Of a stretch of 7,989 nt of DNA, positions 1-7,989 are shown one piece after another. The notes under the pieces are model-generated. The model made no database searches, had not been told where the DNA came from, and was given only the letters and a program-made list of their open reading frames with translations. Positions within the stretch are counted from its first letter, which is position 1; the number at the start of each line of letters is the position of its first letter. Position numbers and translations under genes: made by a program. This DNA is from JAGLHV01 sp023132075 [NCBI: bacterium] (GTDB lineage: Bacteria; CBDUZB01; JAGLHV01): contig JAGLYT010000064.1 in assembly GCA_023132075.1 (NCBI GenBank), forward strand, positions 1 through 7,989, written 5' to 3'.

Positions 1-3000
1 TCATTATCAAGCGGTTTTTGTATCTGTTCTATTTTCAAACTAGTCCCTGCTGAAATCTTATAACCCTTAGTTCCAAGCGTTAATATATTAGCTAACCCAT
101 GAAATATTATCGTATTTAGTGATTTTAATATTTTAGAAAATTCCATCTGAGTACTGGTTCTATTAATTGTGATCTCTTTTCTATAAATATCCACTTTAAC
201 AAACCAATGAGCATCTTTTACATCATCTACAAATATAACTTTATCGATAACATCGCCATAATCTCCCTTCAATTCAGTTGCAAATTTAAAAACTTTTTCC
301 TCGATTATTTCTTCTGTCGTTTTTATTTCATCACTGTATTTAGCATTTACTTTCTCTGCAAAAACACCTAAGGCTTTTACCATTATCTCCCTTATCTCCG
401 GTAACTGCTCCTTATTCTTATAATCAACCATCACCGTCGGAGAACCACCTATGGCCATCCTCATTACATTGGCTAAAATATAAATGTAATTTACATCATT
501 TACCGTCAATCCATCCCTAATTTCCTTTGAACCAAATTTCCCTTCCCCTTCTTCAAAAGTCTCCCTCGGTAATAACGCTATTATCGCCATTATCTCTACT
601 AACGCCTGCGCCGCCTCTATCCCGGTATGGGCAATACGCGGAAAATTCATCGGTAAGGAATTTATCCCAAATTTAGCTAACTGTTTATTTACTTCTTCCA
701 TAATCAATGCTATCTCTTCATTACCCGTATCCGCATCCACATACCCCACTCCAATCGTATTCATCGTCTGATGGCGATTTTCACTACTATATAAATCATA
801 AAGATAATTGGCTATACCTTCCTCTGCTTCTTCCTTATTCTTACCCCTATATGATTTCTCTTCTGCCTTTGTTACACTTTCCGGACAGGCAATTGAAATA
901 CTTATCCCCTCCTTTTCATAAACATCTACCTGCTTGCTTAATTCCGGCATATGAAAATCTTTCGTATATTTCCCTAATCTTTCATTTAAAAATTCATCTT
1001 TCTCTAACGCCGCTTCCATTAACGCAGATTTTAATCCGCCTGATTCTGCCATATCAGCAGAAAAAATACCCCTGGAAATAGTTCCCGTAAATAAACGAAC
1101 GATTTCTTCCTTATTATCACCCATTTCCAATCCATCAGTTATCTGATTTAACCCTTTATCAATAAATTCTTTAAACTCTTCCGGTAATTCCTCTCCCCTT
1201 TTCTTTTCCGCTAAAGCAACTTTCCCCTCTATTTCTTTCCGTGCATCTTTTAATGCATCCTCTCTCGCCTCTTCCATCTTTTCCTTTATCTGCTCCAGGG
1301 TTACTTTTACTTCCTCCCCCATACCTAATTTTTTCTTTAACGCTACGAAAATATCCTTAATTACTTCTGTTACTTCCCGCGTTGTCTTTACCGCAGGATT
1401 GGAATTGGCATCCTGATCCGTTAAATGCGTAAATGTTGTTACTACTGTCTGTAGTAACGCCGTCGCCTGCGCCTGTACCGCCAAATTGTGTCTAAATAAT
1501 TCTTCTATTTGCTTTTTACTCATCCCTCCCTTTTTCTTCCTGAGATCCATTTTTACCACTTTTACAGGTATGCCTTTATCACTTAATTCTTTCGCCTTAC
1601 TTAACATATCTTCCGCATATTCAGAACTCATATTTACAATAAATTTCAACTGATACAGTTCCGGCTTACCTTCAAATGTCGTCATATAATCTTCTCTTGC
1701 ATCCCAGAAAGAATGCATATTATTGTTTCTTTCTTTTCCAGGTGCCGGCTTGGCTATTCCTTCATTCGCATTCTGGAAAAATTCCGTAGCAAAATGTTTT
1801 AACCCGGGATCAAATATCATACCCAACTTCACCCGGCCTTCTACATCCCTTTTCCTTATATCCTCTATCGCTATCTGACTGGCAGCATTATTTGCCGCCT
1901 TCCCAAAATCTTCCTGCTTCGGACTGAGCTGTTCATTACCTTTATATAAATTTTCAACATACACTCTTAACTGCTCCTCTGCCCATTCTACCGCCTCTCC
2001 CTTATCCTTATACTTCTTACATCCCATTATTAAAAATGCGGTAAATAACGGCGTAAACACCATATCCGTCTTTAAATTCATATGCCGCCCACCTATGGTG
2101 CCTGGAGTATTATTTATATGCAGTATCGCCGCTAATTTAGGATGGCTCTTTCTTATCTCTTCCCCTATTTCATAAAAACGCCCCTTGTTCGCCCATACTA
2201 TCCTCTTTACAATTTCATCCTTAGTCATCTCCATAAAACTCTGCGGTTCCTCTGTTCCTCCACTTCGACTCATATCTATGGCTATCGTATTTCTCTCGGT
2301 TATTTCTTTACAATTCTTCTCCACACGCGGATAATCCGCAGGATTGTCCACTACCTCCCAGTGAAAATCTATCCCTAAATCCTCGGCTAATTCGTTCACC
2401 ATCTGTGCATCCTGGTGCAAATACATCTCATTGGCTCCTATGCCGTTGTTTATTAAATTTATTATCTCTTCTATGTTAACATTTTCTCCCTTAAGCAAGT
2501 ATTCTTTTACTTTATCTATTGATTCCCTTAAATCACTTAATTCCTGCTTGTTTATTTTATCCTCTTCCCTAGAATAAACTTCCGGTTTGTCCTCGCCAAA
2601 TCCTTCTAACCCAAGAAATCTCCCTACATACTGCTCCATATCATCCCGATAAGGAAATATCGTATTGACTGCTTTTTTGAATTTCTCTGCCATAAAATTA
2701 GAAAGATGCACGCCCTCACCTTCTTCTAACGACTGATAATCAGAAGAAATTATAGACCCTTTTTTAGTTACTTCTATTTCTAAATAGTTATTGGTCGACT
2801 CTTCTACAGATAGATTCTTATCATACTTAGCTGTTAGAAATCTACACTTTAAGGCCTTTTCCCTAAATGCCGGAATATCTACTAAAATATCCATGACCTC
2901 TTTTACACTCTTTCCGCTTGCTCTCATTAAATTTTTCACAAATTCGTGAACATCTAAAGCATTCATCATAATCCCTAACTGTCGCCCATATTCCTTCAAC

Positions 3001-6000
3001 TCTAAAAGATCCATTAAAAACTTCATATTCTTCATCGATTCGGTTGGGGTAATTCCCTTTATATCTTCGGTTTGATCACTTTTTGCTTCTCCTGCCAGCT
3101 GAAATAACCGGTTCCTTACCAACTCTTCCGTTTTTTGCTCATTCTCTTCTAAAAACTTATTTAACTTCTGGATACGACCAGAGCTAACAATATTATCCCA
3201 GAGAATAATAAATTCATCTAAGTTTTTTAAGTCCTTCTCTAAAGCAGCTAATGAAGAACGGACCTTCCGATAGATTCTATCATTACCCACATAGTACTCG
3301 GCCTGAAGGTATTCGCGAATAAGCAAAGAAAAATCATCCAGAAAACCTTGTTTTATCTTTTCATCCATATTCCTCACATCTCTTAATGTAATACTTTCCT
3401 TTTTACTTCGACTCACAAGCCGCCAAAGATTGTCATCCAAAATCCCTCTCCATTCAAGATCTCTCTTTCTCCATTGATCCTGAATCCGCCTACAATCAAT
3501 GCGTCGTTTTGTAATCTTTCCATCAAAATCAAGAATAAGATGGTTAGGCAAATCCTGGGGTAAGTCTAAACTTAGTGTCTGCATTGATAAAGAAGACAGT
3601 TCCTCTTTTAAATTAATCCAAAATAATTTTTCTATTTCAGTTCGAATTTTGTTAGTTCCTTTAATTTGAATCGCTAAATCTATATCACCCAAAAGATCTA
3701 AAGGCACCCAGCCTTCCTCACCAGCCAAATATCTTGCACTGCCAATAATTGTTGACCGCAAAATAATCCCTTCTTCACTAAACTTTTCACTTGCTTTCAT
3801 TGCCGCATCTTTTACAGCTTGATCCAAAAATTTACAATTTATCCAGATACGCCCGTTTTCTTCTTTGACAGGTATTATCTCTTTTAAATCTTCTACCGAA
3901 AATTCTCCCGCATCTGAATATATCCTATTTATAAAACCTTCCATTTCCGGAGTCATAGAAGTGTCTAACTTCCTTTTTAATTCATCCATATTTGCGATGT
4001 TATCTTTCTCTCTCTCTATCAAATTTTTAGCCAAAGATACTGGATCTATATGGAAATCTATTAATCTTGTTGCCTTTTCCCAAGAACCTACCGGGATGGA
4101 CTCCAAACCTTTTTTTCCTTCATATTCAAGACTTATATCTCCTATAGCACTAAAAACAATAAGCTGCCACATTTCTTTCAACAATTTCTCTATTAATTCT
4201 GATGATTCTGCTTCGTCCATTTTCTCAGGAACATAGTCAATAGTCCAACTTACTCCGAAAATTGTTCCCTGTTTTATTTCCTCTTCAAAAATTTTATTAA
4301 AAACGCCTTTAGTTCTTAATTGTTGTATTGGTGTTTGCATATACATTATTATTTTCATTGTATCTTTTGGTCCCATTTTTAATTCTTTACGTATTTCTTT
4401 TAAAATCGGTTTGGAATAAATAAAATTTTCTCGAGTAATTCTAGATTTTTTTTCTAAAAATATATCTTCCTTTTTAATCTCTATCCCTTCTTTCACAGCC
4501 ATTTCTTTCATTATTTGCTCTATAATTTCTGCTTCGCTTTTTGTAAAAGTATCTTTTATTAATTCTCCGTCCTCATCTAAAAGGTCATTTATATCTTTTT
4601 CTGTTCTGACATATTTACCTTCGGCAACTTCAATACTATAATGATTTCTTACGGCTGCTTGCATTAGTGGTAGCGTTAATCTTCCTTTTCCTCCTGTTAT
4701 TAAAATTTTCTTTACTATACCTTCTTTATAAAGCCTTAAAGCTTCTTTAAAAGTATCTATGTTATCGTTCCCACAAAGAATTAAAACATCAGATTTATCA
4801 GCTTTCTTTTCTTTATCTGTTAGTAATTCAATTATAGGCTCAAGTTCACTTAAATCCTTTATCGATTCTTCAGGGATTATCTTTATTTCTTCCGCTTTAA
4901 TGGCAAAAGCAACAAGATTTTTTTCGCCTCGACTATCTGTCCATTCTTCAATTTCACCTAATCCTAATAAAGTAAATCCCTGCCGTTCTAATACTGATTT
5001 TAAAAGTTCTGGGGAATAAAATTGATAATAACGTTTCCCTAATCCTTCTTTTGTATCCAGCCCCTTAAATCCACGACGGTCTTCTGTTTCTGCTTTAACT
5101 GATACTTTGAAAATCCCTCCCGGCTTAAGAACACGATAGGTTTCTCTAATTGCTACATCTGCTCCTTGTTGAGAATCAATAACAGGAAGATGATGCAAAC
5201 TCATCTGAGATCTAACTCCCTCAAACATATTATCGGAGAACTCAAGATGATTCATATCCATCTGCAAAACATCTAATTTCTCTCTTCCAATACTTTCTCG
5301 GATAAATTTAACAACTCTTTCTGAAAAATCAATTCCTATAACAAAAATATCTTTATGTTTCAAAAACCATTTTAAATCTCTTAAACCTGTTCCTACATCA
5401 AGAATTTTTATTTTTTCTTGCTTTAAATCAATGGATTTTATTTCTCTTACCAATTTTAAAAAATTATTAAGCATTTCTTCATCTTTTCCTTCCGGAACTT
5501 GCCCGCGTATTTGTTCATATTTATCTACCATTTGATCATATACTAAACGGGTACTCTCTGCTTTTCTTAATAAAACTTCATCTATTTTTTCTCTTATTTT
5601 GTTTTCGAGATTCTCCTGACCCAAATCCTTTGCTTTTTCTAATTCCTCAATCAATTCTTGAATATCTTGCTCTACTGCAGTTATTATAATCTTCCGGTCA
5701 GCAAAATCCTTATCCTGCTCCAACCTCTCTTTTACCTGTTCAGCCACCTCCGTATTTTCACAACTTATCCTTATCTCTTTTTCCTTTCCTTTAGCTATCT
5801 TACTGCTTATATATCCCACTACCGCTGTCTGCCATCCAAACACTAACGCCTTCGGTATATTCGCTATCACTTCCCCGTCTAAATAAAAATCTATCTTCTC
5901 AGGATACTTCTCCGACTCTTCACTACTTAAATATTTATCCCACACACTTTCATTTCTTTCTTCCGCCTTCCTAATTTCTTCTTCCACCTCCTTACTTGCT

Positions 6001-7989
6001 TCCCTATCCCTTACCGCCTGTACATATTTATATGCCTCTGCCCTTACCTCTTCCTCTCTTTCACTAAGCCTTAATTCCTTACCTAACATTTCATCCATTA
6101 CTTCCTTATATCTGGTTACGCCTACATCTCTTAATTTACTTAAATATCCTATAAAGAAATCATCCCCTAACTGCTTTAACTCTCCTCCTATCTGCCTGCG
6201 ATATACCTCTATGTCCGCTCCTTTCTCCGGTACCTGTCCCATTATCCAACTGTATACTCGTATACTATCCCCCGTACCCGAAGGCCTTATCGTTACTATC
6301 GCATCACTCCCCTGCTCCGTCTCTAAGATTAACTGTATCCCTTCCTCAGGAAATCCCTTATAATTATTGTCATATTTACCATCACGATATACGATTACTT
6401 CCTTTAATCTGTACTTGCCATCAAACAACTTTACCTCTTCACCTTTATCCAGTTCCTTCTGTAATAATACCGCAAATACCTTCTCCGTAAACTCTACCTC
6501 GTTTACCTTTTCATCTACCCCCTTTAACCCCGGATGTAATAAAAATCGATTGTCCGTTCCCACTAAACCTGTCTCTCTCATCAACTCCTGATACATATCA
6601 TATAAACTCTGCCCTTTATATCTACCGTAACTTACTAAATCTAAAAATTCATACGCCGCTAATGAACCATCCTTTTCACATATATGTGCATCCTTTACCT
6701 CTCCGGCTTCAGGATCATAATACCCAAATTCCCCGTATCCGTTACTCTCCTCTACCCCCATCACTATCTCTATGTTCCCAATCAAATCCAAATCCTTTAT
6801 TATCTTTTCCCTGTCTGCTTCCTCTCCCCTGGCTATTCTCTCTATATTTCTTATCGCTTCATCAAATATCTCCAGCCCCGCTGTCTCATACGGGACATTC
6901 CTCTTCAATTCTTCATTCGCTTCTTTTAATACCTTTAATATATCTTCTAATACTTTCCCGTCCTCTATCTCTCCCTTCGCTTTATATATATTCCTCGCTA
7001 CTTCTATTAAATCCCGGCTCTTCTTCGCTAATTCAGTAAACCCTACATATGTGTCCACTACATATACTTTATACCCTTTTTCCTGATAAACCTCAGCTAC
7101 CCTCTCTAACGCCGAAGTCGTTACATGCGATTTCAATATTACATATAACTTATCTTTATCTAACGCCCCATTCTCTTCCCTTAATTTCAGTATGTGATAT
7201 GCCATAAATGTCCACGCATCATTCGCCGTTAATAAATGATAATCATTTAGTTTCTTAAATGCCTTTCTTACTTCACCCTTTACCTTTTTCTTATCCTTTA
7301 TCTCTTCTGTCTTCTCTATATACTCCATTACCGCTTTTAATAACTCTCCCTTGATGTTCCCTTCCACTCCCTTCGGTAACGGTATTGCCATTCCTGCCCG
7401 GTCTATGTCCGGATCCGTACCTACTCCTGCATCTTTTTTATTTAACTCTTCTATCGCTTCCTCTATTCCGCTAAGATCTTTCCCCCCTATCTGCACTAAA
7501 TAATCTACAAAGTTTACTACCCACCCTTCCACTACCCCCGGATCAGGCATTCCATGTCCAGGAAATGTCCCGTCCATTACTTCTGTCTGCTTCTGCACTA
7601 AATTTATTTTGTTTACTATGCTGTATCCTACCCGCTGGAAAAATCCAGGTAAATCCCCGGCTACCGTCGCTCCCACTCCGTAAAATGCTGTGTATAATAT
7701 TCCTACCTCTTTCTTCTTCTTTTTCACCTCATCCCTTATTTCTTTAGATAAAAACCTTAACGGCGACCTATCCTCTACATGTTTATAATATTCTTTATAA
7801 AAATCTTCCGTCTCCGCTCCTACATAATCGAATTCTTCCTCTTCCCTTAACTCTCCCTTCGTCATCCAGGTCAAGCTATCTCTATTTTCTTTCAGTACAT
7901 CATTTAATTTATATTCTTCCATAGCTAAATCCATAGCTATATCTTTGTATTCTACTTTCCCTCGTTCCCCCATCACCATCTTCTTTCCC
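1..7989 (-). CDS. Giant multi-enzyme polyprotein-like gene, partial at both ends
   Basis: A single minus-strand frame (codons on + strand triplets starting at 3, 6, 9 and so on) is open across the window: 2,662 full codons with no TAA, TAG or TGA, entering at 7988 and leaving through bases 2-1. No start or stop is present, so the true protein is longer at both ends. The product contains, in order, a phosphohexomutase, a methyltransferase, a DUF218/YdcF-like domain, a nucleotidyltransferase-like domain and a phosphoglucose isomerase, joined by charged helical linkers. No signal peptide or convincing membrane segment is visible, so a cytosolic location is inferred. Conserved motifs in correct order at both ends show that the frame is real and not a chance opening. 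No Shine-Dalgarno-plus-start arrangement or frame break was seen at module borders, so I read this as one gene rather than an operon. Omnitrophota-like giant genes are the closest precedent I know. Confidence 0.96.
3..414 (-). other. Start of a further unassigned module
   Basis: Residues about 2526-2662 lie beyond the terminal strand of the isomerase. They begin with a charged helix (EQLPEIREIMVKALGVF) and continue as an alternating strand/helix sequence (VIDKVIFVDDVKDAHWFVKV, then YRKEITINR and a hydrophobic helix FHGLANILTLG). From about 350 downward the codons shift to ATT, GTT and ATC, as in the central block, suggesting another domain of separate origin. I recognise no family, and the frame runs off the window edge. 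Confidence 0.35.
591..660 (-). other. Isomerase C-terminal motif, divergent (FPRIAHTG)
   Basis: Around residues 2448-2461 the sequence MNFPRIAHTGIEAAQ corresponds to GPRFLHSTGQLHKGG near the end of transaldolase/PGI-type isomerases. PR, H2454 and TG are shared; the following Gln-Leu-His-Lys is missing and replaced by Ile-Glu-Ala-Ala-Gln. The preceding helix (IALIMEEVNKQLAKFG) fits the family's helix before this motif. Confidence 0.65.
1105..1320 (-). other. Charged helical insert within the isomerase module
   Basis: Residues about 2224-2295, directly after the DQ...PAV motif, are dominated by Glu, Lys and Arg with heptad-like hydrophobics (VTLEQIKEKMEEAR, KEIEGKVALAEKKR), suggesting a coiled coil or long hairpin. 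In ordinary transaldolase/PGI proteins a shorter linker occupies this place. It accounts for part of the module's extra length, and its likely role is structural. Confidence 0.5.
2076..2093 (-). other. Isomerase GGR motif
   Basis: Residues 1966-1971 read GGRHMN. Phosphoglucose isomerases have a near-invariant GGR(F/Y)S here, whose arginine takes part in catalysis. The GGR is kept; the aromatic-Ser pair is replaced by His-Met. The hydrophobic helix after it (MVFTPLFTAFLIMG) matches the family. Confidence 0.85.
2244..2270 (-). other. Isomerase SIS phosphate-binding loop SRSGGTEEP
   Basis: Residues 1907-1915 match the S-K-(S/T)-G-(G/T)-T-x-E-T loop that binds the sugar phosphate in phosphoglucose isomerases. 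The Ser/Gly/Thr pattern is intact. It follows a hydrophobic strand (NTIAIDM), as in the family. Confidence 0.88.
2666..3399 (-). other. Unassigned, mostly helical region before the isomerase
   Basis: Residues about 1531-1775 separate the nucleotidyltransferase-like domain from the isomerase. The sequence is rich in leucine and charged residues, with helix-like stretches (FIILWDNIVSSGRI, KLNKFLEENEQKTEEL, SVKEVMDILVDIPAF), and ends with a beta-like part (NNYLEIEVTKKGSIIS). I recognise no family. The helical part could be the all-helical cap that often follows a nucleotidyltransferase core, which would make it one unit with the preceding domain; this is a guess. Codon use is intermediate between the methyltransferase block and the flanking enzymes. 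Confidence 0.4.
3400..3850 (-). other. Probable nucleotidyltransferase-fold domain
   Basis: Residues about 1380-1530 carry the elements of a DNA polymerase beta-like nucleotidyltransferase: a helix, then IIGSARYLAG with the Gly-Ser pair (G1416, S1417), then DLLGDIDLAIQI with the paired metal-binding aspartates D1435 and D1437. A strand LILDFDG and a possible third carboxylate D1498 in RRIDCR follow. The gap between GS and DxD is 17 residues, longer than the common 9-13, so an insertion in the active-site loop (AGEEGWVPLD) is implied. The substrate is unknown; it could transfer a nucleotide to a small molecule or protein, or be inactive. It sits between the DUF218-like domain and a helical region, with an unassigned linker (3851-4099) before it. 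The assignment rests on a few residues. Confidence 0.58.
4100..4800 (-). other. DUF218/YdcF-like domain
   Basis: Residues about 1064-1297 resemble the DUF218 superfamily (YdcF, SanA, ElyC). The landmarks are a first strand ending in Gly, DVLILCGND (1067-1075); the helix with EALRLYKEG; a second strand KILITGGKG (about 1094-1102); a KSEAE helix; and the family's S-x-x-T-x-E-N signature, here EKKSRITREN (1179-1188). A further strand, MKIIMYMQT, and a WQLIVFSA segment complete an alpha/beta fold. Members act in envelope physiology or are uncharacterised; E. coli YdcF is reported to bind S-adenosylmethionine. That would link it to the adjacent methyltransferase, but this is inference. The domain lacks the usual N-terminal membrane anchor, consistent with an internal position. 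The sequence is divergent, so the family call is probable rather than certain. Confidence 0.72.
4885..5411 (-). other. Class I SAM-dependent methyltransferase domain
   Basis: Residues about 860-1035 form a Rossmann-like methyltransferase of the UbiE/Methyltransf_11 type, which uses S-adenosylmethionine to methylate a substrate not deducible here. Motif I is ILDVGTGLRDL (862-872), where the family usually has GCG; D864 and the glycines are kept. The acidic residue for the SAM ribose is D887 in GIDFSERV. D911 in QMDMNH fits the adenine-binding position. SLHHL (H932, H933) and YRVLKPGGIF (951-960) are the typical motifs after it. The later YYQFYSPELL and the final strand LVAFAIK fit the C-terminal half. 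The length of about 175 residues is normal for a complete domain. Its codons (ATT, GTT, CTT, CAA) differ from those of the mutase and isomerase modules. It is followed at once by a DUF218-like domain. Confidence 0.9.
5412..6129 (-). other. Linker with helical charged stretch and an unassigned alpha/beta piece
   Basis: Residues about 621-859 join the mutase to the methyltransferase. The first part is strongly charged and helix-prone (repeated Glu/Lys/Arg, as in SEREEEVRAEAY), a likely coiled coil or extended helix. A more ordered piece follows (about 5900-5690): hydrophobic KALVFGWQTAVVGY, then a predicted strand-helix-strand with IRISCEN and RKIIITAV. I do not recognise a family. The segment after about 5690 (helical, from AVEQDIQELIEEL on) already uses the codons of the central block, so the compositional boundary falls inside this linker. 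Confidence 0.5.
6252..6287 (-). other. Phosphohexomutase phosphate-binding loop RPSGT
   Basis: Residues 568-579 read RPSGTGDSIRVY. The RxSGT core that holds the substrate phosphate in domain 4 is intact. The usual EP after the threonine is replaced by GD (573-574), a deviation of unknown effect. This is the last conserved motif of the mutase, and domain 4 should end about 40 residues later. Confidence 0.92.
6738..6758 (-). other. Phosphohexomutase sugar-binding loop GVEESNG
   Basis: Residues 411-417 match the family's G(E/F)ES-G sugar-recognition loop in domain 3. E414 and S415 are the residues expected to contact substrate hydroxyls. The loop lies at the expected place between the VTTS segment and the phosphate loop. 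Confidence 0.9.
7398..7418 (-). other. Phosphohexomutase metal-binding loop TDPDIDR
   Basis: Residues 191-197 read T-D-P-D-I-D-R. In phosphohexomutases the three aspartates of DxDxDR coordinate the Mg2+ that activates the phosphoserine. All three (D192, D194, D196) and the following arginine are present, so this loop looks functional. Confidence 0.93.

Follow-up and report, generated by a model that had tools for sequence, protein, structure and literature searches.

A stop-free bacterial contig as a probable internal fragment of a giant gene with enzyme-like modules and signal-peptide-like linkers

The window analysed here, a stretch of 7989 bp that is the whole of contig C351 in a bacterial MAG (G000; 1.87 Mb, 389 contigs, 86.7% complete), is very probably an internal fragment of a giant gene. 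We propose, giving the proposal an even chance, that this gene is a mosaic whose product would form a chain of modules tethered to the membrane, which signal peptidase may cut. The minus-strand frame at 3..7988 runs through 2662 codons with 0 stops, and the remaining minus frames contain 247 and 362. Because the window is the entire contig, both of its ends are contig ends, and the frame is open at both, as an earlier note on this DNA had claimed. The longest frame among 200 base shuffles of the window was 255 aa, and with the base composition of the window the probability of meeting no stop over 2662 codons is about 1e-106; chance is thus excluded as the origin of the open frame. Ordinary frames of G000 terminate at TAA (270), TGA (76) and TAG (62); since all three stops are used, the standard code fits and an altered code is not needed.

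The same MAG contains much longer frames of this kind. We surveyed the 66 largest contigs of G000 (the size ranking is inferred, and the lengths agree with it) and C387, which itself came from the linker search described below, and in three contigs longer than 20 kb the survey read the first 20 kb. Seven of these 67 contigs (C1, C13, C168, C301, C332, the window and C387) are stop-free end to end and sum to 30,907 aa or 92.7 kb, and the longest frame in the remaining 60 has 1764 aa. C1, the longest contig of G000 (35,308 bp), is a single stop-free frame of 11,769 aa, and C13 (13,646 bp) is one of 4548 aa; both were reached through a congener protein. Eleven further contigs (C3-C12 and C14) carry ordinary genes. 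Long frames with a linker or with a module of the window were found in all three genomes of the genus, that is, in G000 and in the two congeneric MAGs G001 and G002. In G001, the frame of contig C48 (1539 aa) fills the whole contig, and another single frame links the glucose-6-phosphate-isomerase (GPI)-like module of the window to TM helices and then to a sequence homologous to giant contig C13. In G002, a frame of 7631 codons (22.9 kb) in contig C178 runs to the contig end; its start is visible, with AGGAGG upstream, and it begins with an N-terminal signal peptide that, by eye, ends AYA-Q. G001:C386 has the orthologous start, with 75% identity and an N-terminal signal peptide, and the order upstream is the same in both contigs: the end of a long ORF (4244 aa in G002), an ORF of 360-376 aa, and the giant start. 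The first 927 aa of the giant gene have no match in G000, so that the assembly probably lacks its start, and no 3' end was seen in the contigs read. The suggestion of the earlier note that the window belongs to something much larger is supported by the stop-free frames of up to 11,769 aa and by the G001 frame. Judged from these sequences, the window and the other contigs likely lie in one single gene.

The giant frames are rearranged between species and duplicated within themselves. C301 tracks residues 1167-2927 of the G002 frame at 48% and then continues with the equivalent of residues 7281-7576, so that the species differ in how many modules they have or in how these are arranged. BLAST detected duplicated modules inside C1, G002:C178, C332 and other frames, most of them in C1 and G002:C178, and in C1 the identity reaches 81% over 139 aa. 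TM-like hydrophobic segments, called by simple hydropathy, number 30 in C1, 14 in C13 and 15 in the G002 frame.

The earlier note counted at least five recognisable domains in the window, a count that is confirmed in part. Two of them exceed the Pfam cut-offs, a third falls 2 bits short, a fourth is linked indirectly, and the fifth is a motif seen by eye; all lie on the minus strand. The first is a phosphoglucomutase (PGM)-like module (approximately aa 1-600, 6189..7988), the domain I of which is removed by the contig end. Its PGM_PMM_II match (E 6e-6) is the one 2 bits under the cut-off, and the motifs DPDIDR (aa 192-197), GVEESNGYG (411-419) and RPSGT (568-572) are present; it shares 30-31% identity with an 805-aa frame of another genome, G047 (798 aa from the first ATG), in which PGM motifs were seen by eye. 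An SAM-dependent methyltransferase module follows (approximately aa 845-1010, 4959..5456), with a Methyltransf_11 match above the cut-off (E 6e-15) over aa 863-960, and then a DUF218 module (approximately aa 1075-1275, 4164..4766), which we take to be YdcF-like, with a match above the cut-off (E 1e-10) over aa 1079-1273. The GS...DxD motif at aa 1414-1440 (3669..3749), recognised by eye, suggests a nucleotidyltransferase, and no Pfam family passed the cut-off in that region. A conserved module of approximately 920 aa (aa 1641-2556, 321..3068), which includes the GPI-like core (approximately aa 1849-2203), is 60-66% identical to G001:C396 (JAGLHV010000082.1), a contig wholly occupied by a frame of 2137 aa; this congener record was the sole match in a contig search with the module. 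The C-terminal remainder (aa 2557-2662, 3..320) has no equivalent in the congener, in which TM helices take its place. A contig search with the entire window protein and one scan of viral contigs found no relative, and aa 1-1640 were not found in the congeners apart from a weak methyltransferase match in G002. In sequence searches of the PDB, the whole frame retrieved methyltransferase-type chains only, and the conserved module, the PGM part and one piece of C1 retrieved nothing useful.

The link of the conserved module to GPI is indirect. A profile match (E 5.5e-8) leads from the module to a free-standing ORF in G088, whose own match to the GPI model PRK03868 (6.7e-7) falls far under the cut-off of the model. 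PF00342 (PGI) did not match the module in the Pfam scans or its contig in the genome search. With hhalign, the module and the ordinary GPI of the genus were collinear only when the G088 sequence was added (probability 3.7, E 0.012), and nothing was obtained without it; AlphaFold2, run on a two-row alignment of the module, gave a mean pLDDT of 33. The G088:C90 ORF itself, of 528 aa and GPI-like, has no Pfam match at E 1, adjoins a PtsI-like ORF (by eye), and possibly represents an unrecognised isomerase family.

One could suppose that the giant frame is a decaying graveyard which accretes gene fragments and in which most modules are inactive. A separate, ordinary GPI gene is present in G000 and G001, the GPI-like and PGM modules of the window are strongly diverged, and the duplications within frames, as well as a piece of iPGM in C13 that is truncated immediately ahead of a linker, would be in keeping with such accretion. 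However, 92.7 kb without stops is hard to reconcile with decay, the PGM motifs are retained, and over 909 codons the window and the congener differ at 188, 135 and 389 sites at codon positions 1, 2 and 3, respectively. The changes are thus mainly at third positions, the pattern that a translated frame under selection should show, and we regard decay as quite unlikely. The iPGM piece occupies the first 50 aa of C13, corresponds to profile positions 85-132 of 217 and ends just ahead of the linker, the contig end cutting the other side, so that it reads as a truncated enzyme joined to the frame; the three genomes of the genus contain no second iPGM_N match.

The window also contains a compositional block (aa 801-1460, 3609..5588, minus strand), which takes in the methyltransferase, DUF218 and the nucleotidyltransferase motif and has a GC3 of 0.21, against 0.37 elsewhere in the window. 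A segment scan of GC3 supports it (z 7.7, p 0.005), and a one-changepoint scan of GC3 found nothing. Five of the six other giant frames lack such a block, C387 being the one that has it, and none was found in 47 ordinary frames of at least 700 aa, although these average 885 codons, so that the scan has lower power there. The simplest reading is a block inserted later; a chimeric contig would give the same pattern. Indeed, the sharp block, the fragmentation of the MAG and the codon usage of the window, the correlation of which with ordinary genes is the lowest of the seven giant contigs (0.793, against 0.905-0.956 in the six others), could all be taken as signs of an assembly or binning artefact in which unrelated genes were fused in frame. 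But chimeras would bring stops, which are absent from all seven contigs over their whole length; no stop interrupts the frame at either border of the block, and homologous long frames occur in independent MAGs of the genus. We therefore consider an artefact very improbable.

Pfam scans of the giant frames at E 0.01 (C1 and the G002 frame were scanned in pieces, with one border each without overlap) gave the following content: methyltransferases and mTERF in C1; GH130, the iPGM piece and a GNAT match just under the cut-off in C13; F420 oxidoreductase, alpha/beta hydrolase and GH15 in C168; a methyltransferase in C387; a histidine-kinase ATPase in G001:C48; SecA-like domains in C301 and the G002 frame; and TPR in the latter. 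C332 gave no match at this threshold. The scans contained no condensation, adenylation or ketosynthase modules of NRPS/PKS, and in the scanned frames no Pfam adhesin domain, including discoidin, laminin_G and dockerin, was found at E 0.01. The SecA-like DEAD domain lies in the G002 chain that starts with the signal peptide and at aa 2242-2732 of C301, which has an additional SecA-like set past the part seen in G002. Four HExxH motifs occur in the 30,907 aa (C1 aa 1650 and 3154, C13 aa 2968 and C387 aa 105), against 0.3 expected, and this excess hints at metalloproteases. The motif at C1 aa 3154 lies in a module with two copies in G002 and a single one in G001, the latter reading HELRY at this place.

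Thirteen related linkers were recognised between modules in C1, C13, C168, C387, G001:C48 and G002:C178, nine of them in frames of G000. Their parts follow one order: a basic flank, a hydrophobic helix, an Ala-x-Ala-like site, a K/R-free loop containing a second helix, and another basic flank, which reads KAIGxRAGP in some linkers. The first hydrophobic stretch extends for 17-37 residues to the proposed cut (one with K, several with E near the end), the exact position of which is uncertain by one residue in some linkers, and Ala stands at -1 in all 12 aligned linkers. The site is followed by 26-44 residues without K/R, the loop being K/R-free partly by construction, since its end was set at the first K/R. 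The two 20-aa flanks contain 26% and 25% K/R, compared with 15% overall, or 23% and 21% when the flank-defining residue is subtracted. In sequence, the first helix is built like a Sec signal peptide, and the 13 linkers, identified by anatomy alone, look like internal signal peptides. A first linker profile (nine rows, six of this type) gave five new matches: G001:C48, three in G002 and one in C168. A second profile (12 rows), searched against 386 genomes, gave 13 matches with E of 6e-11 or less, all in frames of more than 1500 aa of this genus; since 12 of these are rows of the profile itself, only C387 is new there. Outside the genus, four matches at 0.004-0.007 lie in shorter frames. After internal TM helices, a plain Ala-x-Ala is no more frequent in the giant frames (21 of 93) than in control proteins (96 of 448, p 0.78), and only the K/R-free form is enriched (12 of 93 and 18 of 448, p 0.002), two of the 12 not being these linkers. 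An Ala site is lacking in many TM clusters, including the one after the window-like module in G001. A signal peptidase gene of family S26 is present in all three genomes, truncated by a contig end in G000.

In the window itself, no signal-peptide-like linker and no convincing TM segment was found, one marginal segment (aa 2457-2473) lying within the conserved C-terminal module, and fragment-against-fragment BLAST gave 0 pairs of internal repeats. The description of the earlier note, no visible repeats or secretion signals, thus suits the window and fails for the class of genes to which it belongs, with its duplicated modules, two N-terminal signal peptides and 13 linkers. Internal repeats are also a mark of repetitive secreted adhesins; no adhesin domain was found among the duplicated modules as far as these were scanned. 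The internal signal peptides with an Ala-x-Ala site that characterise polyproteins cut by signal peptidase have counterparts, by anatomy, in the 13 linkers outside the window.

We propose that one gene, or a few, of this kind would consist of cytoplasm-type enzyme modules interspersed with occasional linkers of two TM helices, and that translation would yield one enormous chain of enzyme-like modules. By the positive-inside rule, basic flanks stay cytoplasmic, and the charges of the linkers thus argue for modules inside. Each linker would dip through the inner membrane, exposing its K/R-free loop on the outside and keeping the basic flanks, and with them the modules, inside, so that the modules would be held in series on the membrane; those of the window would depend on linkers that lie beyond its ends, and the modules would act as enzymes. 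This mooring, with the modules inside, is in our estimate evenly poised between right and wrong. Signal peptidase I may in addition separate the modules at the Ala sites, which we think rather unlikely. Equally doubtful is the mega-polyprotein that would follow in full, in which one gene of at least 30,000 codons, its repeated internal signal peptides cut by the ordinary signal peptidase, would replace an operon with a series of membrane-anchored enzymes, the modules being shuffled between species.

The chain could instead be an exported giant protein, a surface coat or a weapon of predation or attachment, which the TM helices would anchor in or pass through the envelope so that the modules act outside. 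The N-terminal signal peptides of G001 and G002 would be natural to such a protein, and so would GH130 in C13, GH15 in C168 and a TadE-like gene before the 4244-aa ORF in G002 (E 0.0046, below the cut-off); the available text of PMC10066038 contains a proposal of this sort for Ca. Velamenicoccus archaeovorus, together with raised peptide levels in attached cells. Nevertheless, the modules are of cytoplasmic kinds (SAM methyltransferases, PGM, F420 oxidoreductase and the iPGM piece), the linker charges place them inside, and the scanned frames are free of Pfam adhesin domains. We judge export of the whole chain possible, with the chances against it. The membrane-tethered chain that we prefer has a difficulty of its own here: the N-terminal signal peptide would carry the first module, in G002 the one with the SecA-like domain, out of the cytoplasm, at odds with a layout that is cytoplasmic throughout.

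Cutting by signal peptidase within a bacterial chain has a precedent in FbcH of Bradyrhizobium, the precursor of cytochromes b and c1. FbcH likewise has an internal signal peptide, and it has two parts only, whereas the frames of this MAG contain nine linkers. Polyproteins of Flaviviridae are also cut by signal peptidase, internal signal peptides separating the modules of a single reading frame; unlike these, the present gene is bacterial and far longer, and its cleavage would be a prediction from sequence. In the literature searched, neither signal-peptide linkers nor a polyprotein reading had been described for bacterial giant genes; Kizina 2022 and West-Roberts 2023 lie outside that literature, so that novelty is unproven.

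The earlier note further compared the window with the giant genes of Omnitrophota. According to the available text of PMC10066038, ORFs of more than 20 kb are common in that phylum and their roles are poorly understood; one in Ca. Velamenicoccus archaeovorus encodes 39,678 aa with 42 TM helices, and adhesion domains (discoidin, laminin_G and dockerin) are not universal among them. The comparison holds for size and TM content: C1 and G002:C178 exceed 20 kb (the window alone has 8 kb), and spread TM helices occur in C1, C13 and the G002 frame. An uncultured lineage, few annotated domains and poor conservation across species are further common traits (PMC10066038, available text). It does not hold for the host. 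The host phylum consists of three genomes in the genome set searched, all of one genus, compared with 276 species of Omnitrophota in the source abstract (PMC10066038), and by the taxonomy used the host thus appears not to belong to Omnitrophota; a search of G000 for 16S rRNA gave no match. Other differences from the Omnitrophota ORFs are the enzyme-type modules, their proposed position inside rather than outside, and the recurrent linkers with signal-peptidase-like sites, of which the available text of PMC10066038 makes no mention. Giant genes are said, in the accessible part of PMC12057145, which cites a preprint by West-Roberts, to be common also in Elusimicrobia and CG03, PVC-related lineages that likewise stand outside Omnitrophota.

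The use that bacteria make of proteins tens of thousands of residues long is not yet settled, and for this lineage the linkers offer a concrete and testable answer: either a chain moored to the membrane or a polyprotein that a housekeeping protease cleaves. The exchange of modules among congeners, the duplications and the compositional block of the window would reveal the way in which such genes grow. Two smaller observations may be added. By eye, approximately aa 2300-2790 of C1 have the look of a gingipain-like (C25) cysteine peptidase, without database support. The 4244-aa ORF upstream of the giant gene (G002:C178, 3013-15744) is a second long ORF with a signal-peptide-like start, and a similar start in G000:C336 looks, by eye, orthologous to it.
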